64,000 nucleotides of DNA, from assembly GCA_016946835.1 (NCBI GenBank), contig JACVTC010000044.1, positions 1,210,428 through 1,274,427 on the forward strand, given 5' to 3'. Below are positions 4,828 through 60,033 of the stretch, one piece after another. This DNA comes from Neocallimastix lanati (nom. inval.) (taxonomy: Eukaryota; Neocallimastigomycota; Neocallimastigomycetes; Neocallimastigales; Neocallimastigaceae). Position numbers and translations under genes: made by a program. Positions within the stretch are counted from its first letter, which is position 1; every line of letters starts with the position of its first letter. The notes under the pieces are model-generated. The model saw only the letters and a program-made list of their open reading frames with translations. It was not told the DNA's origin and did not search any database.

Positions 4828-7800
4828 ATGGAATGTCATGAAATTTCGAAAGTAAGTAAAAGTCAATTTTTTATTTTTTATTTGATATCAATTACTGTAA
4901 ATAATTCTTCTGATTACGAATTTCACTTTATTTCATTGACTTTTCTATTCAAAACATCGAAAAAAAGTGACCTTTTGAAAAGTTTAATTTTTTTTTTTAA
5001 AAAAAATTTTTATACCATTAAAAGGCCTAAAAAAAATAAAAATGTTGGGAAGTTTAAGGTATGATTATTGGAATGAAACATATATGAATCCATTTTTTAT
5101 AAAAAAATAATAAAAAAAATTGTTTATTTAAATGTATTATAATTTAAGGAATAACAAAAAAAATTATTAAAATAAATTTTGAATAAAATAATTATTAAAA
5201 AAATGATTATACAGAATAATATAATTATTTAATTATTTATGTAATTAACAAAAAAATTTTTTTTAGAGGTAGTTATAGTTTAAATTTAATAATTAAAAGT
5301 AAAAATGTTATAGTCTTGTTGTTTAAAAAGAAATAAAGATTATAGAAAAACCCTTTTTTTTAATTGTATTGTTAATATTTAATTCATTATAATACTTATG
5401 AAACAAAGATTGAATGAAAAAAAATTATAAATCTATTTTATGAATATGATTATCCTTTTTTTATATATATATATATTATTTTAAGTAGTAGGATACTAAT
5501 TTTTTTTTCTTTTGATAAAAAAATTATTATCATTAGTAATTCCAAAAACTTTCTATTTCAGATCTTTCTGTTAACGGTCCTGTTTCTAGCTCGTAAAGTT
5601 TCCGCTGAAGTTACAAGTATGTAATATATAAATAACCATTTCTATGAATTTTTAAAATCGACATGACCAATAAATAATCTAATAAACTTCAATTATTAAT
5701 AAATTAAAACCTTTCTTTTTATGAATAATTTAATAGTATTACCGGTATGTGGACGTGCCAGTGATGATATAACACCAGAAAGTACTACAGCTATTTGTAA
5801 TAAGAGTGGTGGTGGTACTATTACAACTGGAAATTATTGTATAAATGAAGAAAAAACCGAACTTTATAAGTCTGATTCCACTAAATGTGAGAAAGTTACT
5901 TTAGTAGCGAATACCTATTATGTTTTTGTATGTACCGATGAAAATACATGTGCTCTTAAAACTGGTGGCGATATTGATACAATAGAAAATGATGCCAAAT
6001 TATTAGTATATCAATATGTTGATAGCAAATTAAAACAGATAAAGAATAATCGATATGTCTTTGTGAAAGGTAGCACTAATCATAAATTAATTAGTTGTCC
6101 AAAAGGTGATCTCACTTTTGCTACAAATGGTAAATGTGAGATTGCAGCAGCAGGGGTTTATATGAATCCTAGAACGGAATCTAGTGTTACTGATCCATTG
6201 ATTGTTGTAGCAGCAAATACTTTAATTGCTTCACCAAAAACACCAGTAGTTGGAAGTTTTTATTTGGATCAAAGTAGTCAAGACAATAAATTAATAAGAT
6301 GTTCCAGTACTACGGAATGTGTATCCGATACCCCTGTTAAAGGTGTTTATATAGATGAGACTTCCCAACCTGATTATAATAAATTAATTACATGCGATGA
6401 TAGCACTTGTTCATCTGATGCAGTTAATACTGGTGGTGCAATAAAATATTATTTAAATCTTGGGGTCACTAATAGCTTGGAAAATGCCATTGTCAAGTGT
6501 GACACCGAAAATAAATGTTCCAGAGAAAATGGTGTCAATGGAGCTTATTACCTCAACAGTGGATCAGATAATAGCAGCGAGCTTCTCATTAAATGTGACG
6601 CCACTAAATGTTTCACTATGCACTATTCCTATTCTGAAACGAAGACGAGTGACGCTTTTTTGGATAGAGGAAGTTTTGCTAACAATAAATATGTCAATGT
6701 AATAAAATGTATTGCAGCGACAGGATGTTCAAATCCTATATTAACAGCAGGAGCCGATAATTTTTATTACTTTATTAATGGTGGTAGTACCAGTATCAAT
6801 GATGCCATTATTACCTGTACTGGTGAACCCTTGGAATGTACGGCAGGTAAGGGATTGGCAGAAGGGTTCTATGTGGATTCTGTGGACGATAAGCGTGTTA
6901 TTAGCTGCGACTCCTCGTCCTGTGTTTCTACTCCGGGAAGTAAGCTTCAAGGCCATGCCTATATTAAGGCAGTAGCTTCCGGCAAAAAGGATAATATAAT
7001 TACTTACGACAAAGCAACTGGTAAATTTGTAACCACATCTAAAAAGGATGATATAGGTACTGATGAAGATAAACTATATTATATCGATGGCTCCAATCCA
7101 AAAAAATTAATTTCTTGTATAGGGGCTACCAGTGGTGGTGGAGAATGTACCTCGGCTACACCTACCATGGGAAGTAATAAGTATTTATTCTATCCTGATG
7201 GTACAGATCCCACTGATCATACGATTGTCTGCTCCTCCGACGGTTGTATTTCCTCTAAAGGTAAAATAGGATTTAAAAATTATTATTATTATTTTTTTTT
7301 TATTATTTTCATTGCATTAGACCTTTTAGAATTTTTTTTTTTTTATTTTTTTATTTAAATTTTTTTTATATTTATTAAAAAATTTATAGTTTTTTTATTT
7401 AGCTATTATTTTATTTAATTTTTATTTTATTTAATTTAACATTATTTTTTTTAATTTTTTACATTATTTTATTTTTATTTTTACTATTTTTTATTTATTT
7501 TTTTCATTTTATTTTTTATTTTTTTATTTTTTATTTTTATTTTTTAGTTATATTTAGATAACAGTTTTTTTTTTATTTTATTTTTTTTTTTAATTTTAAT
7601 TTCTGTTTTTTATTTATCATCATTTTATTATTTTTTTTTCTATTATACATATTTTATGTTATATTTTATATTTCATTTTCATATTTATTAGTTTTTAGTT
7701 TTTATTTCGTTTCATTCATCGTTTTTATTATTCTTTTTTTATTGTTAGTTTTAGTTTAGGTGTTTTTTTATATTTTATATTTCAAAGATTTCGTTTTATT

Positions 7801-7833
7801 TTTAAAATTTATTATGACATTTTATTTTATTTT

Positions 7834-7864
<31 letters not shown>

Positions 7865-10800
7865 ATTTATTATATTTTTTTATTTTAAAAATTATCATAA
7901 AATATATCATATTTTTTTTATTTTCATAATATTAAAAGTATTAATTATAATTTTTTTATATTTTTTTAAATTAAAGGTTTACAAACATGTACCAAAATTG
8001 AAGAAAGTAAATGTTATGTTGGCTCAGCCGGAACAGCCATGGATGAATCAAAACATTGTTTACATACTGATGGTAAAATTTATTTGAGTTCTAATTCTGA
8101 TGGAACTTGTGGGGCATTAACTCTTCCAACAGGTTCTACTATTACCCCTTACATATTTGAAAGTGCTGATTATACAGCAGAAACGTTTGGTAATTCAGAT
8201 GTTAATGATGCATTAATTTATTCCTGTGACAGCCAGAAATGTACTCAAATTATTTCATCAGGTTTTAAAGGTACCACTTTATACTATACTTGTAGTGATG
8301 GATTATGTAATAAAGTAGCATCACTTGTCGTTGGTCAAACATATTTAAATGGAGTAGCCACCATTAGCGCTACTCAACCTTATCTCACTTATGGATTAGT
8401 TGAAGTTTCAGGAGGTACGGAAATTTCAAACTGTAAAACGGTCTCTAGCCCATCTGGCATTTATTATAACTATGCCGTTCCAAGTCTATTACCTAATGCT
8501 TTGATTAAATGTGAGAGTAGTAAATGTAGAGCTATCGATGGTGTCGCCAAAAAATTTTATATTTCTTCCAAAAAGTTAATTGAATGTGACGAAAATTGTG
8601 CTGTTGTATCAGATACAGATCTTGCTAATAAATATAGTTCTGGTTATTTGCTTGATTATGACAGCCAAGTGGGTGAACTAGATATCTTTACTAAATTAAT
8701 TTCTTGTACCTCCACTGAATGTACCAGTGTTACCCCAGTCGTGGGTTCTTATATTAATAAAGGAGAAGCTGAAAAAATTATTAATTGTTTTGACATCAGA
8801 GAAGTAAATTGTGAAGCCCATAGACATGGTGGGACCAATGATAAACCAACCTACTATTATGATGGCATAAGTAAAAAGCTTATAAGCTGTAACGGCAACG
8901 GTTGTTCCTTCGTGGACAAAAACTATAAGGGTTATTTTTTGAATTCTGGAAGTTCCTTTTTGAATTCTGGAAGTTCAACAAAGCCCATCATTAAATGTAC
9001 TGGAGCGGCCACGAATCCTTGTACGGCGGAAGAAGTTACGGAGACGACCTGTTCCAAAGCCGGTAGAGTGAAAAAGGTCGGTGGGGACATCTACCTCTGT
9101 GTCTCGGCCAACGATGCGGATGACCACATAAATATGGCCACTGCAACAAAGCAATATCGATCCGTGGTCGCCGCCAATGAATTCCCCGGAAATAATGCCA
9201 GTACCGATTTTACGGTAAGAGTGGACAACGACGGAAAGGTCCTTCTCATGGAAGATGGCATTTCTCTGCCAGCTTGTGGAAGTACCTGTGTAGAAAACAA
9301 ACATTGCTTTGATGGAACGATAATTAAAACTAAAGTTGGTGGAGATGAAACTACTTGTATTCCAATTACAAACGAAGCCAGTACCCCAAACCCTAACCCT
9401 GTTCTTTATTTTAAAGAAGACACTACAAAAGTTGATGCAGGAAATGTGGATAGTAACGTTTATGCATATAAATGTACTTACAGTAGTACAGCTAATGATG
9501 CAGGTACTTATGATGCCACAAGTTGTGAAATAATTAAAGGTTATGTTGCAACAAATATTGGTACTAATTCTTTATACTGTAGTGGATGGAAGTATGATAT
9601 ATGTACTTTTGCTGTTACTGCTACCGGATTAGGAACAACATGTGAAAAAGTAAAATTAATTAATGAAGGTAAAATTTGTACAATTCCTGATGGTGTAGAT
9701 CTCGGTGATGGAAGTGTACTTTTCTATCCAACAGAAGCCAATGAATACTACGGTATTCGATTAACAAGTAACACTGGATTTGTAGGTCTTGAATTAACGT
9801 CAACTTCAGCGATGGTCACTTCAAATCTAAGTAAGTTAAATTTTTTTTTTTACATAAATTAAAATAGTTTCATAAAAATTATTTAGAATGGAATTAATTG
9901 GAAGTAAATTTAGAAGTTAAAAAGTATATATCTAACTTCAAAATTTTTTTTTTAATTCAATTTTTAAATGAAAAGATTTCAATAAGAATGGTTATCAAAT
10001 AAATCCTGCCGCTCTCGGTTCTTTGAAAAAGGCCTTGATTAAATGTACATCCCCCAGTAAAATTAGTACTTGTACGGTTGTAGATGCTAAGGAAGGTTAT
10101 TATCATATGGGTAATACTACATCTGATCCAGTGAAAGGAACTGGAAATCTTATTAAATGTACTAAGGGCAGTGGATGTGTGGTAGTCGATGGTGCCGCTG
10201 GTGACTATTATATTGATGCTTCTGATACTTCCAAAATCATTCATTGTGTTGATGAGTCCGGTATTCTTTGTACAAGTATTCCACATCAAGGAAGTGCCAG
10301 TAGTCCAACGCATTATGCATCAGCTGATGATAAAGTTTTGTACACTTGTAATAATGATGGTTGTATTAAAGAAGATAGTGCCATTTCAGGTTATTTCTTG
10401 AATAGCGCAGGAACTTCAGGTAAAACTTTAATAAAGTGTGAATCAGAACAATGTGTGGAATTTGACGATGTTACTGCCTATAGTGGTGTCGGCTCAGTGA
10501 AAGTTACTTCCGATGGTCACGCATTTCTATGTGTGGATGTCGGATGTAATGGGGCTGGTGAAGTTGAAATTAAGACTCTCTCCACACCAATCTACAAAAC
10601 CATAAGATCGGGTAATTTATTCCCAGGAAGTCCTCATGCCACTGATATTACCGTAAAATTCGATAAGGATGGAAGCGTTTTTCTTCTTGATCCTATTAAC
10701 TATGGTTTAACCGCTGGTATCACAGAAACTACAGTTGGCACCTACGTTTATTTCTTTGACATGAATGGTAATAGGGTGAATCCTCCAACTTCTGGAACTC

Positions 10801-13800
10801 TCCCCAATGTCTCGGCCTATCAATGTGAATATAAGGAAACAGATAATGAACTGGCTGACGGTACCCTAGCACTTGAACAATATTGTGTACAAGTGAAAGG
10901 TTTTGCAAAGATTCCAGGAACGAGTAACTTTGTTCAATGTAGTGGATGGCGTCGTGAAGGTTGTACGATCACTACTTTGAAGTCTTGTGACCCTGAAGAC
11001 GAAGGAAAACTCGGTACCGGCAATAAGATTTGTTTAGGAACGGAGACCTTGTCTCTTCCAACTGGGGCATCTTCGGTCTACACTGCTATTAAGATTAATG
11101 ATATCAATACCTACTATGGTAAAGGAAAATCTGATTATGCTATCAGTCTTAAATTAACTTCAACTTCAGCAATTTCCATCAATCCAGAAGGTAATTTAAT
11201 ATTTTTATTTTTTTTTTTACTTAAAAAAAATAAATTTAATAAAAAAATAAAATAAAATAAAAGTATATATATATTAATATAAAAATAAATATATCATTAG
11301 ATTATTTTTTAAAAAAAAAATAATAGTTTAAAATATAAAAAAGAGAGGTATAAAAGTATTAAAAATCATAAAATATTTAAAAAAAAAGTTTTAAACTGAA
11401 TAGTAATGAATATTATAAAAAAAAAGTTTTTAAAAAGTGCAATTAAATTATTAATAATCATATTTTCAGATTAAAAAAAAATTTATTTTTTAAAATATTA
11501 TAAAAGAAGAATATATTATAATGTATGAAAAGGAAATGGTTTAGAAATATAAAAAACAGTTTTAAAATATATAATTATGACATTAATCATTTAATTATTA
11601 AAGAAATATTTATTATTATTAATTATTAATACATTAAACTATATTAAATTTTATATAATAATTTTGGTTATTTAATAAGGCTCTAAAAACATTATTAAGG
11701 TGGGTAATGAATATAATCTTTATAATGTTGCTAGTAATGCCTTTAGTAAAAATACAGATGGTTATATTATTGATTTATATAATGAATACTATGGTAATAC
11801 CTATCGTGAAAGAGAATTAATACACACTATATATAAAATGCTTTTCTCTTGTTACAAGGGTACCTGTACCAAGAGCAATGGTTACATTCTTTTCAAAGGA
11901 AAAGTTTATGAAAACAGTTCCAGTGGCACAGGAGAATGGACTGAGGTTCCAGAGGCCAGTCAAGTATGTACTTCTAGTACTGATGTAGGTAAGATCAAAT
12001 ATGAAAGTACGCCCAAAATTCAACTTTGTATACCTGGTAATCCAAGTCCAACTTTAGTGGATATTGCTTCCGATATATATTTCTTACCATCTGGAAATAA
12101 TGTTAAAATGTATATTAGTTCAAATTCGAATCAAATTATTGGAACTCCTGATCCTGTGGATGGTTATTACTACATAAAGGATAATAAGAAAGAAACTACC
12201 GCTGATACAACAAACGGAAAATTAGTAAAATGTAAAAGTAAAACCTGTACCGTTATGTCGACCATTGCTGATGGCTTTTATTATAACGTTTTTACGGATA
12301 AATTAATTAAATACACAACGACAGGAGGATCACAGACTCATGAATTTGTCGCTGATATTGGTTATTATCTTGATAATGAAAACGCCTTGGTTTACTGTGA
12401 TGGAGAAGAATGTAGTTATAGCGATGAAATTGGATACTTTAAGAACACCGGAGATACCACCACGAACATCTATATTCAATGTACGGTCAGTGGATGTAAA
12501 GCCATTCCTGACCCAACAGCAGAGTGTAACACTGATTCACAGGTAGGTCATTTGACGAAAGGTGGAAAACTTTGCCTCAAGAATGGTGTCACGAAGGAAT
12601 TTGCCTCGTCCACTCAATTGGTTTACTACCAAAGTGGTAGTGTTTTCAAGTACTACGTCAATAAAAGTACCTACTATGGTTTAATAAAGATGACCACGAA
12701 TTCGATGGTTCTCGATTTCAATAATCTCAATTCCGATTATTGTGTCGATAGTAGTACTTTAGTAGCGACACCTACCAGTACCTGTAGTTCCACACTTTAC
12801 CATTGTAATGTGGATGGTGTCTGTGTGGATTCGACTTCGGAAGAAACTCTCCCTGAATCCATTCGTAATCAAAAGATTGTCGCCGAAGTGGAAGAAGAAG
12901 AGTCTACGAGTGCTATAGACTTAAAGATTGAATGTGATGTCCGCTCCGGAGAAAATTGTAAGTCCTTTTTTTTTTTTTTATTTAAATATAATAATCTATT
13001 TTTTTTTAACTAAAAAAAAAATATTAGTCATTTATTATTTTGAATTTTATAGAATATTTTTTATTATAAATAATGAATATTTTTTTGAGACTTAATGAGA
13101 AAAACAATTTAAATATTAAAAAAAAGAAAAATAAAATTAAATTATTTCGATATTAAATGATTTTTTGTATAGAATTGTTAATGATTTCTTTTATTTAGTA
13201 ATATCTACTAATTCAATATTTATTAAAACATTTTACTTTTTTTTTTTTTTTTATAATTTTTTTAAAAACAAAAAAATCCTAGGTGACAATGATTACTATC
13301 TGGTGAGTAAGGAGGAGAATTACGCTCTCGGAGAGGATCACGGCGCCCTCTTCTATTGTGATCCTGAAAAGCAAAAACCAATCTGTACTGAAATCTTTGA
13401 TGTCGGTTACTACATCAAGGACAAGGAAGCCATCTTCTCTTGTAAAGCAGGAAACAACGGATTAGATTGCTCTCTTAACAAACTTACCGATGAAAATAAT
13501 GCCTGTAATACTAACAGCATCGGTAAGCCCTTCTTGAACCAAAATAAATTGGCCCTTTGTCTCGACTACGATGAGGGTGCTACGACCGCCTACGCCATTG
13601 ACTTGACGCCTACCACCTCTGGAAACTACCTCATTAAGAAGGATTCCTCTAACCTCTTCGATATTCCTAGTGACCGAGACTATGCCATCGTAAGTGTGAA
13701 GGAAAAGATCATCACCATCAATCTCAACTACACCAATAAGCTAAAGTATGTCTATGCGAATAAGGATGCTAAGATGAAGCTTCTGGAGAAGGGAGATACC

Positions 13801-13893
13801 TGTCCTAAAAGCAATGGAGCCTTGGACGAAACCAAAATTTTAGAATTGAATTGTGTCAATAGTAAATGTACTACGAATTTGAACCTTTCTTAA
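4828..13893 (+). CDS. Scaffoldin-like repetitive secreted protein A (fungal cellulosome), about 2,186 aa
   Basis: Probable non-catalytic scaffold of the fungal cellulosome, secreted to hold dockerin-tagged plant-wall hydrolases. Exons: 4828-4851 (tentative), 5562-5616, 5737-7260, 7977-9830, 9976-11190, 11680-12957 and 13283-13893, ending in TAA. Exon 2 encodes a hydrophobic signal core (IFLLTVLFLARKVSA). After it come dozens of G-Y-Y-L-N ... L-I-K-C ... C units, two FPG modules (about 9000-9300 and 10490-10720), YCI-type modules and CSGW modules (about 9580 and 10935). There is no GPI tail, so it is probably released. Exons 3-6 all begin and end in phase 1. The first exon is uncertain: the same donor at 4852 also serves an ATG at 4838 if the acceptor at 5536 is used. 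Gene B is a paralog with nearly the same exon plan. Membership of the scaffoldin family is recognised from the repeat type; cohesin function is inferred. Confidence 0.85.
4852..5561 (+). other. Gene A intron 1 (tentative)
   Basis: A GTAAGT donor at 4852 and a pyrimidine-rich acceptor ending ATTTCAG at 5561. It holds only AT-rich DNA and short open frames without coding character. If exon 1 lies elsewhere, this is simply upstream DNA. Confidence 0.35.
7261..7976 (+). other. Gene A intron 3, 716 nt, T-rich
   Basis: Donor G|GTAAAA and acceptor TTAAAG|G, phase 1. The interior is almost entirely T with A on the sense strand and has no other feature. The same position is interrupted in gene B by a 998-nt intron. 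Confidence 0.85.
8936..8977 (+). repeat. 21-bp in-frame tandem duplication inside gene A
   Basis: Two 21-base copies (8936-8956 and 8957-8977) differ only at the last base and encode FLNSGSS twice. This is a very recent slippage or unequal-exchange event inside a repeat unit. Confidence 0.9.
9831..9975 (+). other. Gene A intron 4, 145 nt
   Basis: GTAAGT donor and GAAAAG acceptor, phase 1. The matching intron of gene B is 2,099 nt. Confidence 0.85.
11191..11679 (+). other. Gene A-specific intron 5, 489 nt
   Basis: Donor G|GTAATT and acceptor AATAAG|G, phase 1, very AT-rich. Gene B has continuous coding sequence at the matching place (about 25475-25545). Confidence 0.8.
12958..13282 (+). other. 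Gene A intron 6, 325 nt
   Basis: GTAAGT donor and TCCTAG acceptor, phase 1, splitting a Cys codon (T|GT). Gene B has an intron at the same codon. Confidence 0.85.
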
Positions 13894-16545: not shown

Positions 16546-17545
16546 TTTTTATTATTTATAATTTTGGCTATTAGAAGGATTTTTTTTTATATTTTATTTG
16601 AATCCTTTAATAAATTTTAAATTTCTATTTTAATATAAAAACTAAAAATTTCATTTTTGAATTTCATTTTTCAATTTTATATTTCTGTTTTTGAATAAAA
16701 GATAAATAATTGAAAAAGAAAAATAAAACTTTGAAAGAAGAAAAGTTTTATAGAAAAGTTTTTTAATTCTTTATTCATTTTATTCTTTATTTTTTTTATT
16801 GTTTTTATTTCTTTTGGTTTCTTTTTTTTTTTTTTTATGATTTTTTATTTTCTCTGATTTTTATTAAAAGAGAAATATTTTGAATTTCTTTTTTCTTTTT
16901 TTAATAAAAATTTTGAAATTAAAAATCATAAAAGTATATCAAAAGAGTTAAAAAAAAAAATAAAAACTTTTTTATACAGTCATAAGAAATAGATAAAAAC
17001 ATTCCTTTATTCCCTTTTTTTTCTTTCTTTTTATAAAAAAAAAAATTTATATATAAAAAATATTTTAATTGCAAAAAAACTCTTAACAAATTCTATCATT
17101 ATCAGTAAAATTAAACATAAAAATGTTTAATCGAAGAATATTAAAGTAAAAAAATGATTAATAATATTTTTGTATTGTTTTTTTTTTTAATAAATTTTAT
17201 AATTTTTAAATAGATAGAAAAAGACTTTTTATAAAAGAAATATTATTTTTTTTTAATTTAAAATATATATTTTTTAAAGAATAAAAAAAAGTATTCTTTG
17301 AATATGAAATATTTTAACAGTTTTTACAAATTGTTCAAAAATAAAAAAAGAAAATAAAGATTTTTTCATTCTTATATAGAATAATAAAAGTTATATAGCT
17401 TAAATTATATTTTCAGTTTAAATAAAAGATGATGAAAAAAAATGTAGTTTAAAAAAATCATTTAAAAATAAATGAAATAGAAGAAACAATCAAAAATAAT
17501 ATTTTTTAAAAATCAAATAATAAATAATCATTTTTTTTGGAATAT

Positions 17546-20500
17546 ATGTTTTTATTTTTATTTTATTTATCGTAAAAATAGTAAATACTAAACCTTTTTT
17601 TTTTAATTACATTGTATTATGATAGGTTTTCAACGACGTTGATTACTTTACTTGCTATTCTAAATCATCATAATGTTAAAGCAGCAGGAGAACTTTCAGG
17701 TAATGGTTTTAAAAAATTAAAAATAATTGTTATAACAATCATAATTTATTTATGGAATATTTTTTAAATAAAAAAAAATATTATTTATTAATATTATTAT
17801 TTTTGATATAATGTTTTTGAAATTAGCTCTACCCTTTTGTGGAAATGCATCAAATTCTAATAGTCCAAAAAATACAGGAGCAGGATGTCTAAATGAAAGT
17901 GGTGCTGGTAATATTGCCAATGATAAATATTGTATAAATAAAGAAAAAACTGTCATATTTAAATCAACTGTTGGTGGAAGTGATTCATGCCTCGAAGGTC
18001 CTACATTAGAAGCTAATAAGTATTATGTTTTTGATTGTACCGGTGGTAGTTGTGTATATAAAGATTATGATGCAGTAGAGTCACTTGAAGGAAATGACTT
18101 AAAATATGTCATTTATAAATATGAAAATAGTCAATTGAAACAAATAAAGAATGATAACACGGTCGTAATCAACGGAAAATTGTTTAACTGTCCAAAGGGC
18201 AATATCTCAACTTTTGCGGATAATGGAAAATGTGGATTAGCCAGTAGTAGGGTTACTAACCCTAATGATGTATACATTAATCCAAAAAACGATGGATCGA
18301 TCACTTCTGCCTTGATTACTGTAGGTGAGAATGGTGCAGCAACAGCTAAAACGCCTGTCGCTGGAAGTATTTATTTGGATTTAAACAGTAAAGATCTCTC
18401 TGAAGATGAATACTACAGATTAATAAAATGTACCTCTGCAACGGAATGTACTATCATTAATAGTCCTGAGGATGGAACATACTTGGATGAATCCACAGAA
18501 AGTTCTTCAAGCTATACCAAATTTATTAAATGTAAAAATGGCGTTTGTACGAGTGAAGATGTTAGTGTTACTCAGGGAGAGACTGATATCTATTTCAATA
18601 TTGGCATTAGCAGTGGTTTAACAAATGCTCTTCTCAAATGTGTTAACCCTAGTGCCGCTTCTTCTTGCACTAAAATTACTCCTACCAATGGGGACTACTA
18701 TCTAGAAAAAGATGGAGGAAAATTGATCAAGTGTTCGTCCACAGGATGTGCCTTCGTGGAGGCCTCGACCACAGGAGCCTATTTAGACAGTGGTTCAAAA
18801 AGTGGAAGTGATTATCCAAATGTTATTGTCTGTACCACACCCATTGAGTGCACTTCTATTGCAGGAACGACAGATGATATCTATATTAATGCAGCGAAAA
18901 CAGCAAAAACGGATGCTTTACTTAAAAGTAATGGCAGTATATTCAGCGCAATAACCGGTAACGCAGGATTCTACATCGATTCTAAAAACGAAAAGAAAAG
19001 CTTAATTAGTTGTACCAGTGACGGTACCTGTACTGCCGTTGCAGGAAATACCGGCATCAGTGTTGGCTATATTTCCGTTTTAGATGCTAAAAAAATAATT
19101 TCTTATGATGGTTCTGCGTTTGCTGAAGCTGCTGGCTATAAAACACCAGATACCTATTATATTGATGGAAGTGACCCGGCCAATAAAAAAATTATAGAAT
19201 GTAAAACAAGTACAGATACAGTTTGTACAAATAAATCTTACACCGTTTCTTCCAAATATACCTTTTTTGATAATACTGGGGGTGTCATCATTACCTGTTC
19301 CTCTAGTAAATGTGTCGGTTCAAAAGGTAAATCACGGTTATTTTCTTTATTTTATATAGAGATATAGTTTTTTTTATATATATATATATAAAGATATAGC
19401 TTTTTTTTTTGTTTTAAATTAAAATCAATTTTTTTTTTTACCATTTTTACCAATTTTTTTTGATACGGTTGGTTTTTTTTTTTTTTTTTTTTTTTTTTCT
19501 AAAATTTTAAAGGATTTGGAAAGTTTTTTTTTTAAAATAAAAAATAGAAATTAAAAAGAAAAAGTGGAAAAAGAATTGATAATAATTTTTCACTTTTTAT
19601 TTTATTTTTTTATTTTTATTTTTTTATTTTATTTTTTATTTTTTATTTTTTATTTTTTATTTTTTATTTTTAAAATAGGACTTATTTGAAAAAAAAAAAA
19701 AAAAAATTGAAAATGAAAATGAAGATATCATTTTCATTATTTTAATTTTTTTTTTTTACTATTTTTATTTTTTATTATTTTTTATTCTAGTTTTTGTTTT
19801 ATTTTCAAGTTTTTATTTTATTTTCTATCTAGTTTTATATTATTTTATGATGTTGAAAAGAGTTGAAAAAATTTTTTTTTATATCAGAAAAAGAAATTTT
19901 GAAAGAAAGAAAAGAAAAAAAAAATTATAAATATATAATTTATATAATTTATATAATTTATATAATTTATATAATTTATATATATATTATATATTTTAGA
20001 TATTTTAGATATAATTTTTTTTTCTTTTCTTTTCTTTTTTTTTTTTTTAAATAATTAAAAAAAAAAAGTGAATTTTATTTTTTTTAAAAGATAAAATATT
20101 ACTAGGACTTTTATTATCTTTTTTAAAATTTTTCATTTTTGTTATATTTTTTTTTTTTTATTTAATTTATTATAGAAAAAAAATTTTTTTTTTGACTTCA
20201 AAAGAAAATAATTTTTTTTATAAAAAAAAAAAACTTACCTAAGGAAATAATGACTAACCTTTCTCTCTTTTACAAACTTTCCTTTATATAACCATTTTTT
20301 TTTTAAAAAAAAAAAAAAATCAAGGTTTACAGTATTGTTATGAAGAAACTTGTAAAAAAGTAGCTGATGGTGATGGTATTACAGCTGGTGAATATTGTAT
20401 CTCCACAAATGGAAAAATTTACAAAAGTTCTTGTACACTCCAAACAGAATTTACAAATAAAGTAACCGTTAATGGAAGTAACTACGTATTAGCCACTGCT

Positions 20501-23500: not shown

Positions 23501-23781
23501 ATTCATATAAAATATAATAAATATATATATATAGAAATATAAAATAGAAATACATGAAATGAAATAAAAAGAAATATAATTGATTATATAAAATAAAAAA
23601 AAATATATATATAAAAAAAAAATATATATATAAAATAAAAAATATATATATATATTTATATATTATGAAATAAATTATTGATAGTATAGAAATAATTGAA
23701 TATAAAATCAGATATTTAGTATATACATATATATATAAAAATGCTATATATTTAATAGAAAATAAGAAATAAGATATCAAA

Positions 23782-23813
<32 letters not shown>

Positions 23814-27277: not shown

Positions 27278-27318
<41 letters not shown>

Positions 27319-38276: not shown

Positions 38277-38384
38277 CAGCTTATATAGCATAGCTGACAT
38301 GTTATGTTCTTTTATCCTCAGCTTATATAGCATAGCTGACATGTTATGTTCTTTTATCCTCAGCTTATATAGCATAGCTGACAT
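38277..38384 (-). repeat. 42-bp tandem repeat in the copia leader, about 2.6 copies
   Basis: Copies start at 38277, 38319 and 38361 and are identical where they overlap. Each holds a near-palindromic AGCTTATATAGCATAGCT. It lies between the 5' LTR and the gag start. Confidence 0.92.
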
Positions 38385-38604
38385 TTTGTTTATTTTCAAA
38401 TTCAATTATATTGATATTGGACTTCTTTGTACAATTATTTTAAATATTAAAGATTCCACTTTTATTTTAGTTTTATAATTTATAAATATTTATATATATA
38501 TATAAATAATTAAAAATTAATATTTAATAATAAATATATAAATTTCAAATTTATTTAATGTTAAATTTTTATTTTAAAAAAAATACTTAGCTTTTATATG
38601 GATT

Positions 38605-38631
38605 AATCGGTTGAGATTGAGACTCTTAATC
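38605..38631 (-). promoter_or_regulatory. Primer-binding site matching half of a tRNA-Lys
   Basis: Directly inside the 5' LTR. The plus strand reads GGTTGAGATTGAGACTCTTAATC, resembling the D-arm to anticodon-loop part of tRNA-Lys(CUU), where CTT would be the anticodon. This fits priming by a 5' tRNA half cut in the anticodon arm, as known for copia with initiator tRNA-Met. Confidence 0.6.
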
Positions 38632-38888
38632 TGTCAAAAATATTATGTTAAGAAACACTCAAATAAGTTATAATAAACACAATAATAAATATATATGGAT
38701 TAGTAGTTTTTAGAAAAATATTTTTTTATAACAGTATAAATTATTTTTATTCTCTTTTGTATAAGATATTGTTTTTTTATAAAATAATAATTCCATGATT
38801 TTTATACTTTTTATTTTAAATATTAATACAAGTAATTGGTCATTATTTATATTAAAGATAGATTAATTAAATTAATCATTATTTGACA
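38632..38888 (-). repeat. Copia 5' LTR
   Basis: 257 bp with TGTCA/TGACA ends, upstream LTR relative to the coding strand. It should carry the element's promoter. Confidence 0.93.
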
Positions 38889-47000: not shown

Positions 47001-50000
47001 TTTGATAATAATTTAGAATGATACATTCCAGCAAATAATATTGGATTATTTCCAAGGAAACTATATGTACTTCTATAGTCATCGTCATCATAATAAATGC
47101 TTTTATCATCATCATATCTTATACAGTTTATTTTTGAACTTGAACTACTCTTTTCAATATCATCAATTGCCAAATAGAGTCCCTTATAATCACCTTCCAC
47201 AACAACACAAATTTCACCAGCTTTAATTGTTTGTTTATCTCTTGTATTTTGACATGAATTTTTACGGGTACTTGTGCATTTGTTAATAACAGATTTCATT
47301 TTTATCTTTGTACCATCATCATCATCTCTCTTTCTTTTTGTATTTTGCTCTTCTTCAACTGTATACTTTTCTGGAACATTCATAATTTGAATAGCAAGAC
47401 CTTCTTTTTTCAAATCTGCTTTGTTTAATATATATCCATCACCATTACCACTATAAATTGATCTTACTCCTCCTGGTAATACTCTCCAATCATCGATACT
47501 ATCATTGTTTTTATATAATACTCTAACATCATAAAGACTAGTAACATTGACTGTACTTCTGTATGGATCCATGTTATAAATTGAATTCTTAAATATGTAA
47601 TATCCTGGATCAGAGACTACTTCAAAGTATTGTTCACTATCATCAAATATATATACTCTTCCATCTTTGCTATTATCAATATATAAATATTTATTTTTCT
47701 TTACATCTACACTTCTTTCATTATCTAAAACAACATTGTTAGTTCTAATATCTGTTTTAGCATATTTGAACTTAATATTATCATTATTTATAGTGTATAG
47801 AATATCATTTTCTAAAATTACAGACGATAATGTACATTGCTCAGTATTAACAGTATTCTTTTTACAGTAATGTTTAATAACTTCCCAACTTCTTGACTTT
47901 TCAAGATAACGAATCATTTTTTCACTGGAAGCTTTATTAATATAGATACGTTGATCTACAGGTTCTTTCACTTCAACACAACCAGTCTTAGTGCATTCAT
48001 AAGCTCTCGACTTATTTAAGTCAGTATCAACAGTTACACCAGTTCTTGTATCAGTAGATATAATGTAGTAACCAAGTTCTTTTTCATATAACTTCACTAT
48101 TGCATCATTGGTCAATTTAATTATTTCTTCTTTTTCTGGTCTTTCAAGGAATTTTGATTTTCTGTAGTGATAGTAGATATCACTACTTCCATAGTTTTCT
48201 ATACATACTCCAGTATCCTTAGCTTTTATAAAGTTTTCAACATAAAGCATTACTGGCTTCTGAGTAACCTTTCCTGTGCTATCTTTTACAATATTGAGAC
48301 AATAGCTATTTCTTTTTAAATTAACTTTAGACTTACAGAGAGTAATATCTTTTGAAGAATCATACTTGTAATTACAAAGAACGGCTGGTTCAGTAACACA
48401 TTTATACTTTTCATTTTCACGAGTACATTTTATTATGTTCTCATAATTACCAGAGTCTATATAATAACCTTCTAATGCTTCTTCTTCATTTTTCATGTTA
48501 CAATATCCATTAGTACATTTCATAACGTTTTCCCATGGTCCATTTAAGTAATATCCATTTCCATTTTCAACAAAGCTAATAGTGTTTTTCTTTGCGTCAC
48601 ATTTAAGGATTCTACTATTATATAAGATATATTCATCTGATAATCCTCCTCCACAAGTATTTTTAATGTTACAACCAGCTTTTGTACATACGTACATTTT
48701 GAATTTAGAATTAACAGATATATCTAATGTTTTTCCTACAATAACATTAACTAACTTATTAGCATTATCAATAATATATACACCTTCATCCATAATATAT
48801 ATTTCATTATTATAATTAATCTTATACATTGTACCATCAATTGGTATATAAATATCTACATATTTCTCAGCAATTCCTTTTTGATAATTATATATATTCA
48901 CATTTTCATTTGAATAGCCCCAACCATTCTTATAATTAATACAGGCAAGTGATGATTTATCAACAATAATATATGTATTATCTTCAGCAGAATAGCACAG
49001 TTGTCCGGAGGCTAATGATTTTTGTGACTTACATTTTCCTGTACTGTATTCGTAGGTACAAAGTGGAATTTCATTATTATCCTTGGTACATACCTTTCCA
49101 TTACATTTTACCATATAATTATTATCTTCTTTCCAAATTGAACTGTCTTCATTAGTTCTTCCAATTAATACAGTATTATCTAAAGAACTTACTAATTTTC
49201 TGTAATTACGAATATTTCTAGAATAATATTTATTAGCAGAGTAGACAAATCCATCAATATAGTAGTAGTTTTCAACATTTGCACTATTTGTTAAGGATAA
49301 ACAATTTGGTTCGTCTATACCAGTATTTATTTCTTTAAATGCGAAATAGACATTATTACCACTAACACAAATATTACCTGGGCTAATTATTGGTTCATTT
49401 CTATAATCACTGTAAGTTTCAGTGTCTGGTTCGTCCTTATAACTAATGTAACAGGTATTTGTTTCATAGTATAATAATGTACACTTTGGAAGTTCTTCAT
49501 ACGTTAATAAACTACAATTAGATTCATCACAATTATATACAACATTTGTGGAAACATTATTAATATTTAATTTTGACAAGTAATAACCTCCTCTAATTCC
49601 AATTACATTTTTCATATCCTTACATTTCATTGTTGTACCAACCTTAATACATTCATAAATTGTACTAACTTGTTCATCCTTCTGAGTTACTAATTTTTCA
49701 GAAGCATTTAAAACATAGTTTCCTTCTTGAGTCACTGCTTTCCATTCATTACATACACTATTAGAGCATTTTCCAACCATTAATACACCTTTAACATTTT
49801 CATAAAGATGAACACCATTTTTATCATCACTATTAATAATAGAACAACTTCCACTTCTGCAATCATACATTGCATTATTTCCCTTCAAGTAGTATCCATT
49901 TGGTGCTACTATTGCTCTTGAATCACTAATGGATACCGCAATATATCCAACACTAGCTTCAGGTAACAAATTATTATTAATGACATCAATAGTGTTAGAA

Positions 50001-53000
50001 GTTAATTCAACACCTGCTGTTCCTCCAGTACATAATTTATATTTACCACCAATTAATGCAATATTACCAACTTTCTCATTTGTACATGAGGTGTCAATTG
50101 CTTCCTCATATAATACACAATTATTTGATGTACATTGAATAATTGGTAATATTTCTTTATCAGTAATCTTCTTATAATCTGTTTTATAGTTTACGGCAGC
50201 ATTTAAGTACCAACCACTATTAATTTCACCATTAACTTCATAACATCCAGATTCTTTTGTACATTTAATAAGCTTTCCAGGATTTTCTGCATTTAAGTAC
50301 CATCCTTCCTTTAACTCCCTTTCCTTACAAATTGGTAATCCTTTAATATCATATCCTCCTTCATCTCCTTCCTTTTTCTTTTCTGGTAATATGCATTGTA
50401 TTAATGGATAATTCCTTGAAGATCCTACTCTAAAGCCTTCATTTACTCCTTGCTTTCCATTAAATGTATATTCGTCATTAATAGTGTGACAGTTTCTGTA
50501 TTCACAATAAACTAATTCTACGACATTTTTATCATTATCTGTTTTCAAATAATAGTTATCATTTGGAATTTCATTTCTCTTACATTCACCACTTTCTTCA
50601 CATTGGTATAACGTTCCTTCATTTTTATCATCAATTATATTATCTTCTCTCACAACAACGTTTGTTTTCATCTTCAGTTGATAGACGGCATTAGATTTAA
50701 CGCTCAATAATACATCCATTCCATCTACACTGATACCTGGGAAATTAGAAGCAACAGCAATATTAGTAATAGCGTCTACTTCATCCTTACCAATATCTAT
50801 AACTCTATTTAATGTATGACATAGTTTAAATCCTTCGTTATAAATTAAAGTTCCAGTACTATCACATTTAACAGCTTCCTTCGCAATAAGAATTTCAAAT
50901 TTACTTGTAGTATCGTATTTGATATAGCGCTTATCACCAAATACATTATTGAAATACCAACCATTACTTGGTATCGTCACAGATTCACATTTCACACCAT
51001 CATCGCCTGAATTTTTACATTCATAAAGACTTCCATTTGCATTACCTAAACTCGACAATATTTCTCCGTTACTACCCAATAATATATAACCTTCTCCATT
51101 ATATTGTTTAATATAATCTTTCTTTTCTTCAATAATTAAACTCTTATCATCTTCAGTTACTGAAATACTGCCAAATGATGATCCCTTTGATAATGTAATA
51201 ACAAAGAACTTCGAGCTATCATCTGTTTTCTTTATTTCTTCTGGAGCAGATCCTTTTTTAATACACATTTTATATTCTTGGAATGCGCCATTAGTGTTTG
51301 TTATTCTGACCAACTTTCCAATTTGTTCTTCGGAACACTTATTATTCGTTGGAGATTGGAATAAAATACTTTCTTCATTAGCTATTACACAATTTCCATT
51401 CATACAATTAATAATACTCTTTCTATATTTAAGGTCATTGTTTACTCCTGAATTGATATAGAATCCATTACCTATTTCATTACTTTCAAGTAATTTACAA
51501 ATTTTGGTTGAATTACAGTAATATAATTTATTATCTTCTTCACTTTCATTTGAATCTGTGCTTTCTTTTGGATCTGTAATTAACATTTCATTAGAACTGC
51601 TAATTAAGTAATATCCTTCGCCCTTGAATTGAACTACATAATTACTATTTACCTCAACAAGGAAGGAATCAAGTGTTTCTGCACCAGGGAATTTATGATC
51701 ACCAGAAATTAAATAATACTTATCATCTTCAATAGCAAGACTACTTCCACCTGCAACTTTAATGCTACTTCCATTTACCTGTCCAATCTTACTTCCAGTA
51801 GAGTCTGTACACTTCGCATAGTCACATAAAATATAGCTTCCTGCTACATTCTTATAACCTGATATAATACCACATTCTCCATTCTTACAATAGTACATTT
51901 GATTTCCTTCTCCTTTAGCATTATCAACAGTATTTGCTAGAATACTTCCTTTAAATATTTCTACATTAACACCAGTCGTAAATTGTTGTTCACAAGTTGG
52001 ACTGGTATCCTCGTCCTTGATTTTGTAATATTTATATATCTTATTATTGTAGATACAGTATTCATTTTCTGGAATTACCTTATTACTGATCTTACATCCA
52101 CTACTACATTGTGGTAATCCCTTATTAATTTTTGGATTTTCTTCATCAATATAACCTATACCAATAACATAATTAGCATAAACTACAGCATAATTTTTTC
52201 CGTTAGGGAATATATTATTTAATGAATATTGAGAAAACTTTCCAGCTTCTTCTGTTATTTTTATTTGAGCCTTAGTTTTTCCACAGAATATATATTGATT
52301 ATTATTGTAGATAAAATCACCTTCGCCCTTGCATCCACTGTTCACATCAACAACTACACAACTTCCAGATATACATTTTATGGCTTTATAATCAGATTGA
52401 CCACTAACGTACCAACCATCAGAGATAGTTTCACCATTTGCATATTTTAATTCGCACTTTCCAATACTTGAATTACAGGTGTATAAAGTATTTAAGCTGT
52501 CAGATTTATTTGCTAATCTTTTTTCTTCTGTGTTAATTAAAACATAGTTATCAGTTTTCAAGATATTTATACTATATTTTGTTGCTTCTGCAATAACTGA
52601 TATACTCTCATATCCTGGGAAATTACTTTCAACTGAATAATAATTATTTGTTGTGCTTTTACTAAATCCAATTTTTATAGAATTATATACAACAAATTCA
52701 TCCTTGTTATTTTTATCGGTCATAATACATTTAGTTTCATCATTATTATTTTTACATTCAATTATATTATCATATCTTTCCGATCTGTAGTAACCGTAAT
52801 TTGGACTTTCAACAAATTCACAACGTTTGGAATCCTTATTACATTTGTATAATACATTTCCATCAGCACCTCCACTACTATTGTTTGTTATTACAGCATT
52901 TGATGAAGATAATAGTAGGTAACCATCAGTAATAACCATAGTTACAATTTTACCACTATCACTAACATTCACTAAGATTTTATTTCTAAATTCTGCTTCA

Positions 53001-56000
53001 GGGAATGTATTTTTAAGATTAATAGTTACTGGATAATAACCGTCACTCGAATTATCTTCGGAACTACAAACCTTTATAGTGTTATCTTCATTGATTAGAG
53101 CACCTTCTCCTGCAACTTCACATTTACTTTTTAGAGTACTTTTATTATAGTATTCACATCCAATAGTACTACATTTTGAGTATCCTTCACCACCAATAAC
53201 GTAACCATAGGTAAGATAACATTTACTGCTAATACTACAATCATATAATGATGCTCCATAATGTTTTTCATTTACTTTACTGGTATCTAATTTCCTGAAA
53301 GTAGCATCAAATAATTTTATATTATTATCAGTAAGGGGTTCACATTCTCCATCTTCAAATGTATATATTTTCCCATTACTTATACAACTTTGTTTTTCTT
53401 GTAATTCTTCATTATTTTCAGTTATACAACTATTATTTTTATCACTTTTTATAATACCTACTTCGTCTTTCTTACAATTTGGTATACCTCCAGCATTTAT
53501 GGCAGCACTTGCTTCACATTTTTCAGCCGTGCATTTAATGAGTGCATCATTATTACCAGTAGCTGCATAATTTTCAAATAGTAATCCTTCATTAGCATTA
53601 ATAAATTCACATTTTCCACCTCCACATACAGCTATAGCATTTTCCTTTTTACCTGTTTGTTTTGAATTTAAGAAATACTTCTTATTTCCTTGTTTATCAA
53701 TTTGATAACATTTTCCATTTTCACATGTATAGCCTTCAACATTTTGTGGAGAAATTTCATTAGAAATCATTTTATTATCTTTGTCAATAAAGATATTTGT
53801 TCTTTCATTATTTTTAACTTTACTATATCTTACAGTTGATAATTCATTCATAATGTAGTAATTTGTACCATCATAAATATCTCTTTTACTATTATTTTCA
53901 TTGGAACTTAATATATATTGATTATATAAACCAGTACTAGGCTCTCCATTAATTGTTAATTTTCCATTGTTATATTGTATTGTAGGATCTTCATTAATTT
54001 CACATTTTCCATTGATGCAGTAATACAACTCTCCTTTATCACTATTATAGTAGTAACCATCCATAATTTGAGTTGTAACTTCCTTGTAACTTCCATCTGC
54101 TGTCTTCATTCTTATAATACCATTTACTAATTCATAACCTAAAATAGGTGGTTCTCCTGCATCTTTAATAATACAAGCACTGCCAATTTCACACTCATAC
54201 TTACTGTTTTCATTAATTTTAATATAAACTTTACTTAATTCATTTTTATTAGAAATATATTTATATATAAAGTAACCATTTCTTGTATCATAATCATATA
54301 CGATTTCTTTTTTAACACTTTTATTATTAATTTGAATGTTTGATCCTTTCTGAAGATCGGAATCAGCTGTTAAAGTTTTCTTACTAAGTAATACACTTTT
54401 ATCCTTTAAACAAACAACATCTTTATCACTATCATTGTTAGTAGCAACTCCTGGACATTCTTCAACTTCTTTAATGTAATCCTTAAATGTTACTTTGTAT
54501 TTACTAATATCTACCATAATATATCTGTAATTTGTACTTGCAGATGGGAATTTCATATTTGGAATTGAGTAAACATAATTAATATTAACCTCCCCTATAT
54601 CCTCAATACCTATTTCACCTTTGTTACATAATTTAAATTTAAATTTTTTAGTATTATCATCCAACTGATGTTGTCCGTCTACATCTATCCAGACAGGTCC
54701 ATCCATTACAACATTATAAATATTATTATTAGGATTACAATTCACATTTTTGCTTGCATCTTCTTCATTAAATTTAATAGTAAGACACAATTTTTCATCA
54801 TTCTTATTGCATCTATAGTATTGTTTATTAGTGTAATCTAGATAATAACCACCTGTCACAGAAGCTTCTTCACATAGTCCATATCCCCAACCAGTACAGA
54901 AATAGAGCTTATTACTGTCAGAATCATAATAGTAACCGTCTATTTTAACTTGTGTAATCATATTTGCTGCATCAATTTCAAAGACAGCAAACTTATTAGA
55001 TCCAGTAACCTCTTTTATCCATGGAATGGTGTTTGCATTTTTAATTGGAATAATAATCTTTTTAGCTTTTTTCATTTCTGGATCAAGTTTTACGTTATCA
55101 TTTACACACCATGTTATCACACCATCTTTTAACATATATTTGGCACTATTCGTTGAACAACTATTTTCAAATTGCACTTTTGTACATGATCCCATATTTC
55201 CACTCTTTATACATTGAATAATACTTCCATCAGCACTAACATACCATCCATTTTTAATATTTTCTACAGATATTTCTTTAAATTTAAGTTTATCACTAGT
55301 ATCTTTATAATTCTCTAATATTGGGTTTTTTAATTTATCATCTGCCCCATTTAAATAATATCCTTCTCTTAAACTATTTGTATAATACTCAGCGCATTTA
55401 TTATCAATACAATTAATTACTTTTTCACTAGTTTGTATATACCAATCACTAACAGTATCCTCTTTTTCACAAAGAATATTTTTACATTTTAATAATTTTC
55501 CATTTTCACCATTTATGTAATATTTAATGGTATTATCAATAATCAGCCCTGTGCTGTCATTTATTTGGTTACTTTTATATTTTATTAAATAATCTTCACT
55601 CATTCCAGTAATAAAGTAACCTTCATATGGTGGGTTGTATTTACTACATTCCATTATGTCATTTTTATTTTTCTTACAATTAATCATATAATTATCTTCT
55701 TTAATGTAATAAAATCCTTCTTTTGGTTTTGCGTATCCGACACAACTATTGGAAGCATCACCAGTCTTAGGACAATTTATAAGTAAATTTTCAGAATCAC
55801 CACTTGGGAACCATTTATAACGTATATCTTTTCCAAATTCTTTTTTATTACAAACATTATTTTTACAGGATATAAGATTTAATCCAGTTTGGATGTAGTA
55901 ACCATCATTAGGTGTGGCATAACTACATCTTATTTCACCAACAGATTTATCACAACGAATTAATTGGTTAGTCAAGTCTTCACTCTTATAATATCCTTCA

Positions 56001-59000
56001 TAAATATTTGTTTTTTTCTCGCTACAGGAACTTTGATTACAATCAATCAAGTAATTCTTTTCATATGGAAGATAGTATCCTACTTTATTAACAATTTCTG
56101 TACAACCACTAGGGTCACAATTGTCTTTACATGATAAAAGCTTATAGGTACTACTAATGCAATATACATTACTGGAAGTATTCACTGTATTAGAATATTT
56201 ACAATTATTATCTTTATCACAGCTAATAGTAGCGTAACTTTTGGTATTAAGATCAGAATTTGGATATGTTTTTCCAGCACCAGCTTCTTCGCTACATCCA
56301 GTACTTGAACATTTGTACACTTTTCCTGTTTGATTAGAAGTAGCAATGACTTTACCATAATTTCCATTATTAATGAGATAGTAAGTATCTTCGGTAAAAA
56401 CAACGGGAAGTACCTTTTTATTATCAACATATTTCATTTCTGTTCCTATAATATATCTAGTAGTTGTTTGAGTTAAAGTAGCCTTTTTTGGATTACTTCC
56501 ATCAGGTACAGTACATATTGTATTCTCTTTTATTGTACCAGCATGTGCTAATTCTGAACACCACGTATCCTCTTGAGGTTGTGAGTACTTTTCACAGCCG
56601 CTTGTACTACATTCTAATGCTTCACTAGAAGAATTTATATAATATCCGTTTTTGCCATTTGTAAGATCATTTTGTTTTATTATTTCGGAAATTGTATTAC
56701 TACTTGTAATCAATAAATTTTTATCGCCAAAATTAGCAGGATCATCATCTGGTATCGTTGGATTGACATAATAATTACTTAAAGTAGTAGGTACAGAACA
56801 TTTCCAGACATTTTCTTTATATTCACATACTACCACTTTATTATTTCCGTTTGGTTCATCTAAAATTTTTGAAGTGTTTTTATCAACAATATAAGCAACG
56901 CTTGAATCAGTATATGTTGGAAAATCTAAAAAGTCATTCTTTTTCACTGATATATATTGACTTTTTTGATTATCTTTAAGAACCATAAATTTCGCGTTTT
57001 CATCGTCATCTTCAATTTCATTACATGCATACTTTCCTGTACAGTATATTACAGGATATTTCAGAAGTGCAATGCCTTCTTTATTTTCATTTATGTATAT
57101 TCCATTTACATCAGCTTCTTTCAATTCCCATTTAGCTGCTTCAGCTTCTCTTTTTCTTGATGCGGGGGTTTCTGGTTGATTTCCATGAATTAAAGGTTTA
57201 ACATTAGTTCCTGTTTCACCGTTCAAATAATATTTGTTTTCTTTTTTATTATCGTCTACATCACTATCCTTAATAATTTTACATGAAGTTTGTTCACACT
57301 TAATCAATCTCTTTCCGTTATTAGAAATGAAAACACCACGATAGATATTTCCAGAACTTTCAAGAGAAACTTTCTTACAAGTTTTAGCTGTAGAATCACA
57401 TTTGATTAACACCAAAGCTTTTTGACTATCATCTACAAAGTAGTTATTTGGTTTTTCAATTTTGTTACATTCTTGTTCTGTACATTCAATAATTTTATCA
57501 TCGGAATCTTCGCTGTTCAAGTATGTATTTATCTTTATCTCGTCTTCATCTTCGAAAATATCAGCAGGAGCTTTGGATACACATTTATCCTCCCCACAAA
57601 TTATAAGGTTTTTGTTAAATTCAAGATAATAGCCACTTTTTTCAGCTTGTTTAGTTTCACAGTAAACTGCTTCTTTTTCAGTACCTTCTTCGGTATACTT
57701 TTCACTTTTACATACAATTAAAGAACGATTTTTAATTCCATTTATATAATTACCAACTGTAGGTTTATTATTTTCTTCCTTTGGATCTTTTGCTTCACAA
57801 TCCAAACTTTCAGAACACTCTATTAAACCTTTTAATGAATTAGTAAAGAATAATCCTTTACCAAATTTATCTTCCTTCACCTCACATTTACCACCTGTGC
57901 AGTGAATAAGCTTTGCGTTATGTTCAATTTTATTAATGGGGAATTTTACTTCCTTATTCACAAATACATCATTTTCAACAAAAGATTTTGTGGTACATTC
58001 AAATTGATCTGGATCAGCTTGACCATCAGCTACTTGTTTTTTTGTACAATAAACAATACCATTTGCTCCAGTACTTCTGTCAACATAGTATCCCTCATCT
58101 AATATTTAAAATGGGATTAAATTAAATATTAGTAATAAATAAAAATTCAAATAAATAAATTATTAAAATTTCTAAAAATTTTAATTCTTTCTATGGAAAA
58201 TAACACTTACTATTTTTATTTGCTTCGTATAAATTTTCTTCAGTTAAAACTTCAATACCAATAGCTTTAATTTTAACCAATTGATATTTATTTGATGAAT
58301 TTTTATTTACAAATACGGCACCGTTATCTTTCATTTCAATTTCAACATTGTTTGTACAGTAGTAGAATTTACCATTCTCCTTCTTTACTATATCATTATC
58401 ACTAATACATGTCGAACTCTTTTCAACCAATTTTATTGTTCTATTGGTCTTATCTAATTTAACCGCTATATTACTCTTAGTGGTAACCCCTGGGAAATTT
58501 CCACTTTCAACTGTAATTAAGAATTCTTTATCTACATTAAATAATACTCCAGTAGCACTTTCACAGAATTTATTTTCTGATAATGAAAATTTACCAATAC
58601 TGGTACAACTTGCAGTACTATAGGTACTACAAGTTGTCTTTGATGTACACTCTATACCTGTTTGGGATTCAGATGAATTCAAATAATAACCTGGTGCATC
58701 TACAGCCATTAATTTACATGTTGCAGAAGGGGTACTGCCACAATCAATTAATGGATACGTTTCTTTGGTAGACACATCAGCATTAAGATTATATCTAACA
58801 GGGGTTATTGAAGCTGTATCTTTAGCATATACTCCATTACTTCCAGTTAATTTAATTATTGTACCACTTTGAGTAGTTATTACAATATTTTTGTTATTAT
58901 CAATTACGTAGTAGTTACTTGTACTACAATTTCCTTCGTATTTATCGCTTGAACTATTATATTTACAAATTTCGCCATTAGACTCTTGTACATCTGGTTT

Positions 59001-60033
59001 ATCCTGTTTATAGGATAAACATTCACCATTTACACATTCAAAATATTTTCCTGTACTGTCGTCTGCGCTACAGAGATCTTCTATTCTACCAACGATTTTA
59101 CTAGTACTAGCCTTCGCACAGTCATAACCTATAAATTTATAATAATATTATTAACCAATTCTAAAATATTATTTAATTACTTAATTAAGTTCAGAATAAT
59201 TTTATTTTTACCAGTGGAACCATAAACAGTATTCAAAAGAATTGTTTCCTTTGTCGGTTCTACTACATAATAATTTTTGGATACATCCAAATTAAAGATC
59301 GTATTACTCTTGTGTTGTACTAAGAAATAAGCAGGAGGTGTAGTATTATCAGCAAACTTCAATGTTGGATATTTTTTAGTTCCACCACTGACTTCATATT
59401 CAGCAAGACAAAGGGAAATACCATTAGTGCTATCGTTCACAAGTTTACCAATGTTTTCCTTTGTACATGATACTGTGGGTGTTTCTAGTACTTTACATAT
59501 ATTTTTTGCACATGAAGCATATTTTCCTGATTTTAATTTATAAAAACCTGTATCCGTTTTTGCAATTCCATTATCATGATTATTATCATATTTATATTCT
59601 GCGATATAGCCTTCATGGTTAGTTGCGTCTGTTTCTACATAATGATAGCCGTCATTAGTTGCTGTACCTATATTAAAAAATAAAATTAATCATTAATTAC
59701 TAGTAATTTTAGATTTAAATTATATTATAAAATACTAACAAGTTGGATCCGCTTTTGGAGTACCATTATCATCCACAAATTCACATGTACCTGCACCTAT
59801 ATTAATTAATAATATGTAAAATATTTAATACTATCTGAAAAAAAATATTTTCTTAATTCACATATAAAATACCTAAAGCAGTTCCTCCATATAGTAAGCC
59901 CACCAATAACGGTAGACTGATATTATAATTAAATAAAGTAATAGAAAAAATTAATAATAAAGATTAACTAATATTACTGATGAATTTTTTTAAATATAAC
60001 AGTAGTTTACCTTAAATATTTAAAATTAACCAT
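41027..60033 (-). CDS. Giant anchored scaffoldin-like protein C (ScaA-type), 6,189 aa
   Basis: Probable primary scaffoldin of the fungal cellulosome, displayed at the cell surface to collect dockerin-bearing enzymes. Exons on the minus strand: 60033-60011, 59916-59873, 59796-59740, 59667-59212, 59128-58211 and 58098-41027, ending in TAG. The total is 18,570 nt and is in frame. Residues 1-22 form a clear signal peptide (MVNFKYLS then LPLLVGLLYGGTALG). The body is dozens of GYYLN ... LIKC ... C units. FPG modules are concentrated at about 50.7-58.5 kb and YCI/GxxC modules at about 42.6-49.4 kb. Residues about 5870-5966 are Glu-rich, 6065-6160 Thr-rich, and the last 29 are a GPI-type tail. Five Lys-Arg sites followed by acidic residues break the repeats. 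Mass is near 690 kDa by length, in the range I recall for ScaA. No dockerin, CBM or enzyme domain is seen. Confidence 0.9.
41030..41116 (-). other. GPI-anchor-type C-terminal signal of protein C
   Basis: The last 29 residues are a small-residue stretch (GGSGAFAS) as possible cleavage site, a short spacer, then a hydrophobic end (TLYLALFLLALFVHF). This is the classic layout for GPI attachment. A single-pass membrane anchor is the alternative. Confidence 0.75.
41117..41405 (-). other. Thr-rich stalk of protein C
   Basis: About 95 residues of mostly Thr/Ser with Lys and Pro, including a run of ten Thr. Typical of an O-glycosylated stalk that lifts a surface protein off the wall. Confidence 0.85.
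41700..41990 (-). other. Glu-rich acidic region of protein C
   Basis: Residues about 5870-5966 are dominated by Glu, Asp, Asn and Pro with few Cys, between the last repeat units and the stalk region. Could be a flexible or calcium-binding spacer; no known domain is recognised. Confidence 0.8.
58099..60010 (-). other. Five short 5' introns of gene C
   Basis: Introns at 60010-59917 (94 nt, phase 2), 59872-59797 (76), 59739-59668 (72), 59211-59129 (83) and 58210-58099 (112), the last four all phase 1. All are GT-AG. Donors include GTAAAC, GTATTT, GTTAGT, GTAAAA and GTAAGT. They crowd into the first 2 kb, leaving the remaining 17 kb intronless. Confidence 0.85.

Follow-up and report, generated by a model that had tools for sequence, protein, structure and literature searches.

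The DNA analyzed here, a 64,000-nucleotide (nt) window forming one end of contig C379 in the anaerobic gut fungus Neocallimastix lanati, contains three giant genes (A, B, and C) whose predicted products resemble scaffoldins, the scaffold proteins of cellulosomes (Table 1). With exons joined at GT-AG introns, each spliced frame contained a single terminal stop, and A, B, and C are real genes. A and B were 35.4% identical in an end-to-end alignment, and both matched C locally (best E value, 7e-7), while no matches were obtained with five shuffles of C or with reversed C. These spliced models and alignments bear out the first-pass annotation of the window, which had described a tandem pair of paralogs and a larger convergent relative. 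It had also assigned signal peptides to all three proteins. Signal-peptide-like starts were indeed recognized by eye in each of them; exon 1 of A is the weakest element of the models, with phase and a good donor site as its sole basis.

A fourth relative of the A/B type, D, lies directly upstream of the window (C379:1205400-1210500), and the cluster thus exceeds it. The last exon of D was 77% identical to that of A over 194 amino acids (aa), compared with approximately 30 to 43% in the other matched parts, which suggests local exchange, possibly by gene conversion.

Repeat modules and chain ends

Two repeat modules were common to A, B, and C. The GYY repeat, approximately 28 aa long with a two-cysteine pattern, was detected 80 times at 4 bits or more (21 in A, 26 in B, and 33 in C); the best of 12 control sequences reached 0.1 bits in the last round and 1.4 bits in any of five rounds. 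The FPG module (approximately 107 aa) was detected 22 times at 5 bits or more (6 in A, including 1 weak; 5 in B; 11 in C, including 1 weak), with a best control score of 4.3 bits in the last round and 5.1 bits in any of four rounds. Controls for both modules were shuffled or reversed sequences. A third, Cys-containing module in the C-terminal half of C was weakly conserved. Hence, from the four shared module types proposed earlier, two were recovered with controls. One predicted structure model spanned both GYY and FPG and was fairly confident, with the highest confidence in the GYY repeats.

Known domains were sought in 10 pieces representing the large exons of the three genes, a scan that excluded the short terminal exons of A and B and the first five exons of C. 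Among the Pfam rows at an E value of ≤1, there was no dockerin (PF02013 or bacterial), cohesin, carbohydrate-binding module (CBM), or glycoside hydrolase family, and all rows were under the family cutoffs (best E value, 0.0058). A sequence search of the PDB with two pieces gave no match with an E value below 0.24, and no relative was found in GTDB genomes with one 264-aa query in a single close-range pattern scan. The first-pass annotation had noted no dockerin, CBM, or hydrolase gene nearby, in agreement with these scans and with the rest of the window, where the sole recognized element was one Copia-type long terminal repeat (LTR) retrotransposon.

The chain of C ends in an acidic region, followed by a Thr/Ser-rich stretch and a hydrophobic tail. 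Read by eye, the same plan was present in all seven giant relatives sampled, and the motif [RK]-[SN]-x-P-S preceded the hydrophobic run in eight of eight giants, C included. The ends of A, B, and D lacked a tail of this kind. Judged by eye, the tail of C resembles a glycosylphosphatidylinositol (GPI) signal, and C would then probably be anchored at the surface. A division into anchored (C) and released (A and B) proteins appears to fit better than the earlier proposal, in which primary and accessory scaffolds belong to a single complex. Since the scanned parts of A, B, and C yielded no dockerin, a physical scaffold hierarchy is not supported. A and B could nevertheless be adaptor scaffoldins that plug into C to form a multitier complex, as in some bacteria. 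Such an arrangement would suit the adjoining genes, their common modules, and the difference in anchoring between C and A/B, but given that no dockerin domain was found at an E value of ≤1 in the scanned large-exon pieces, we regard it as highly improbable.

Recurrence of the block within the genome

Searches of the AT-rich genome (199.0 Mb in 762 contigs) revealed that same-strand A/B-type genes with a convergent C-type giant recur on two further contigs, C90 and C41 (Table 1). The conserved synteny raised as a question by the first-pass annotation is thus supported within this genome by two further blocks.

The C90 copy of C was identical to C at the DNA level over window positions 59605-52606, without a single mismatch, and 99.65% identical over 61541-59543 (61541 being the limit of the fetched DNA). 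At the protein level, the middle third of C and C' was 99% identical where the frame was open, and the last third was 97% and then 94% identical. DNA identity to C90 dropped to approximately 76% from about position 40950, just beyond the stop codon of C. The frame of the C90 copy was broken at approximately 52400-51000, where the DNA was still nearly identical with a few gaps. This near-identity may result from recent gene conversion or from overlapping assembly where the contig ends.

It is conceivable, if rather less probable than true recurrence, that the C90 block is merely the window block in a diverged haplotype or a by-product of its assembly, in which case the recurrence would be weaker than three independent blocks imply. 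The mismatch-free DNA near the C379 contig end and the broken frame within nearly identical DNA are in line with this explanation. However, 28% of residues differed between exon 3 of A and A' and 34% between exon 3 of B and B' (14 to 25% in other exons), and the intergenic DNA between B and C differed from C90 by approximately 25%. Furthermore, the C41 block was clearly distinct, with identities of 45 to 56% to C, 49% to A exon 3, and 40% to B exon 3. A tree built from 17 N-terminal rows joined C and the C121 copy to the C41 giant with a support of 100/100, at a point for which the tool gives a long-branch warning; the C90 copy (L017), L032, and the partial matches L035 to L043 were left out of this tree.

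The Copia element between B and C is young and is no part of the scaffoldin genes. It was probably inserted after the blocks split, as no trace of its polyprotein was found in the stretch of C90 that was retrieved.

Table 1. Features of the window and of the related blocks. Positions refer to the 64,000-nt window unless a contig is named; positions on C90 and C41 are extents of protein-search matches, not modeled gene borders.
Feature	Position	Strand	Description
Gene A	4828..13893	+	7 exons, 2,186 aa, 235.5 kDa; predicted secreted, scaffoldin-like, without anchor
Gene A exons	4828-4851 (weak), 5562-5616, 5737-7260, 7977-9830, 9976-11190, 11680-12957, 13283-13893	+	
Gene B	17123..28384	+	7 exons, 2,218 aa, 237.6 kDa; tandem paralog of A, without anchor
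Gene B exons	17123-17145, 17626-17699, 17827-19326, 20325-22124, 24224-26851, 27461-27913, 28206-28384	+	
Gene C	60033..41027	-	6 exons, 6,189 aa, 693.9 kDa; giant, scaffoldin-like, convergent to A/B
Gene C exons	60033-60011, 59916-59873, 59796-59740, 59667-59212, 59128-58211, 58098-41027	-	Bulk in last exon
C, N-terminal part	49841..59650	-	Most GYY repeats and 10 of 11 FPG modules; to residue 3252, limits approximate
C, C-terminal half	42050..49501	-	Diverged units of third Cys-containing module; boundaries by hand
C, tail	41030..41395	-	Thr/Ser-rich stretch and hydrophobic C terminus, GPI-anchor-like, by eye; Thr-rich limits approximate
Copia-type LTR retrotransposon	32725..38888	-	Between B and C; LTRs ~32725-32980 and ~38632-38888, 99% identical
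D'	C90, 454.6-456.7k		Block read in reverse
A'	C90, 439.8-446.3k		Exon 3 72% identical to A
B'	C90, 424.8-431.4k		Exon 3 66% identical to B
C'	C90, 398.4-415.6k		Convergent to D'/A'/B'
D/A/B-type matches	C41, 42k-122k	One strand	Seven places; best A exon 3 49% at 74k, B exon 3 40% at 117k
C41 giant	C41, 133.7-150.8k		Convergent; 47-56% to C by thirds

Candidate scaffoldins of a gut-fungal cellulosome

The ScaA-type scaffoldins of Neocallimastigomycota were reportedly described by Haitjema in 2017. Bacterial (clostridial) scaffoldins are single chains of many repeated modules that occur in anchored and released forms. By analogy, A, B, and C would be alike in both respects; unlike the bacterial proteins, however, their scanned pieces gave no Pfam row for a bacterial cohesin, dockerin, or CBM.

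In the available portions of one report, fungal scaffoldins are described as repeat rich, larger than 500 kDa in a conserved group, without homology to bacterial cellulosome parts, and able to bind the fungal dockerin; they form a large group of varied size, some with and some without transmembrane anchors (PMC8262932). Excerpts of a second report give 23 to 101 scaffoldins per genome in seven gut-fungus genomes and, for Neocallimastix cameroonii var. constans (187.1 Mb, 18.2% GC), 543 dockerin proteins and 96 scaffoldins (PMC12341934), while those of a study on tortoise gut fungi mention many ScaA homologs (PMC10978972). As far as these excerpts extend, A, B, and C resemble ScaA-type scaffoldins in being giant, repeat rich, apparently secreted, and multicopy, in having a tail in some members and not in others, and in belonging to a dockerin-rich genome. 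They likewise showed no Pfam family above cutoff and no bacterial counterpart in our searches. A (235.5 kDa) and B (237.6 kDa) fall short of the 500-kDa size given for the conserved group, which C (694 kDa) exceeds. At least 150 matches to the fungal dockerin PF02013 were found in the genome (the best 150 of 1,440 candidates), compared with none in 14 control genomes. Size, repeats, signal-like starts, the anchor-like tail, family size, and these dockerin matches lend good support to the assignment of A, B, and C as scaffoldin-like proteins from an anaerobic gut fungus.

We further consider it likely that A, B, and C, together with D, are secreted ScaA-type scaffoldins of the cellulosome, with C anchored and A and B released. 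Tens of GYY repeats, around ten FPG modules, and the array of the third module would be carried by C on a chain of approximately 700 kDa, which the GPI-type tail would tether to the cell surface. There, C could display many dockerin-bearing enzymes through its predicted binding. A and B would provide shorter, unanchored scaffolds of the same modules and, like D, would assemble released complexes. From sequence features, we infer the surface anchoring, the dockerin binding, the binding module, and the shared function of the neighboring genes. The ratio of nonsynonymous to synonymous substitution rates (dN/dS; Nei-Gojobori, from tblastn alignments) between C and the C121 copy was approximately 0.27 over the N-terminal 1,900 residues, which suggests that C is under constraint.

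Several observations weigh against this assignment. Membership in the ScaA group would rest on features, as ScaA was compared by description only, and Foldseek retrieved neither a solved cohesin nor any other fold at an E value of ≤0.001. According to the first report, ScaA went undetected by an anti-ScaA antibody both in cells and in the native cellulosome, and the cohesin of these fungi is termed elusive (PMC8262932). The dN/dS ratios between A and A' were 0.82 in exon 3, 0.52 in exon 4, and 0.21 in exon 5 (212 codons only), and those between B and B' were 0.71 in exon 3 and 0.47 in exon 4; exon 3 of both genes thus appears to be under little constraint between blocks. Several paralog matches contain stops, which arise partly from queries running into introns, and some members of the family may thus be decayed.

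Alternatively, A, B, and C could be adhesins, or proteins that bind polysaccharides, acting at the surface and in secreted form. Their GYY arrays would then grip fungal glucan or the plant cell wall, with dockerin binding absent or secondary. We regard this explanation as unlikely. The GYY repeat differs by its two-cysteine pattern from the bacterial YG/glucan-binding and choline-binding repeats (DSR-E and TcdA-A2), and no sequence match was found with the pieces searched. GYY and FPG, both defined with controls, offer short constructs for dockerin-binding assays, which is of interest as the available literature describes the fungal cohesin as elusive.

Genomic spacing of giants and dockerins

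Very probably, the protein family is an ordinary one (fungal scaffoldins), and it is the genome arrangement that is uncommon. The tandem-plus-convergent clusters and the spacing of the giants were not described for ScaA-type scaffoldins in the excerpts consulted, and no mention of scaffoldin gene clusters was found in a literature search conducted mostly at the level of listings. What is new here is the recurrence of the anchored-plus-released gene arrangement.

After hand merging, 28 C-type loci were counted, including fragments and C itself, and 18 of these lie on five contigs that make up 3.1% of the genome. One open frame of 5,649 to 6,327 aa was present at 15 loci, including C; in one of these, C390:1.22 Mb, stops were also seen within the last third. 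On contigs C379, C90, C41, C357, and C390, 11 intervals between giants measured 205 to 346 kb (mean, 266 kb), with a coefficient of variation (CV) of 0.144 that was reached in none of 20,000 random placements; this set omits C379:988k and C390:226k, a choice made after seeing the data, and keeps the broken-frame loci C90:398k, C90:1229k, and C390:469k. With all 13 intervals, the CV was 0.376, a value obtained in 4 of 20,000 random placements. The best 150 dockerin matches were distributed over 52 contigs, with none on the 21 contigs with scaffoldin matches (contig draw, P = 0.09), and a separation of dockerin and scaffoldin contigs is therefore suggestive only.

The recurring anchored-plus-released blocks and the regular spacing of the giants suggest that scaffold supply is organized at the genome level. 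Tentatively, and with more doubt than confidence, these observations could be combined into a model of dedicated scaffold regions apart from the enzyme genes, in which tandem released scaffolds converge on a GPI-anchored giant in paralogous blocks, with giants approximately every 250 kb on a few contigs. GYY or FPG would then be the long-sought fungal cohesin, and the blocks would represent matched surface-bound and released sets diverging at different rates.

Contigs C212, C511, C102, C75, C320, and C415 carry another class of scaffoldin-like genes, in which the open frames are approximately 3,250 aa long.
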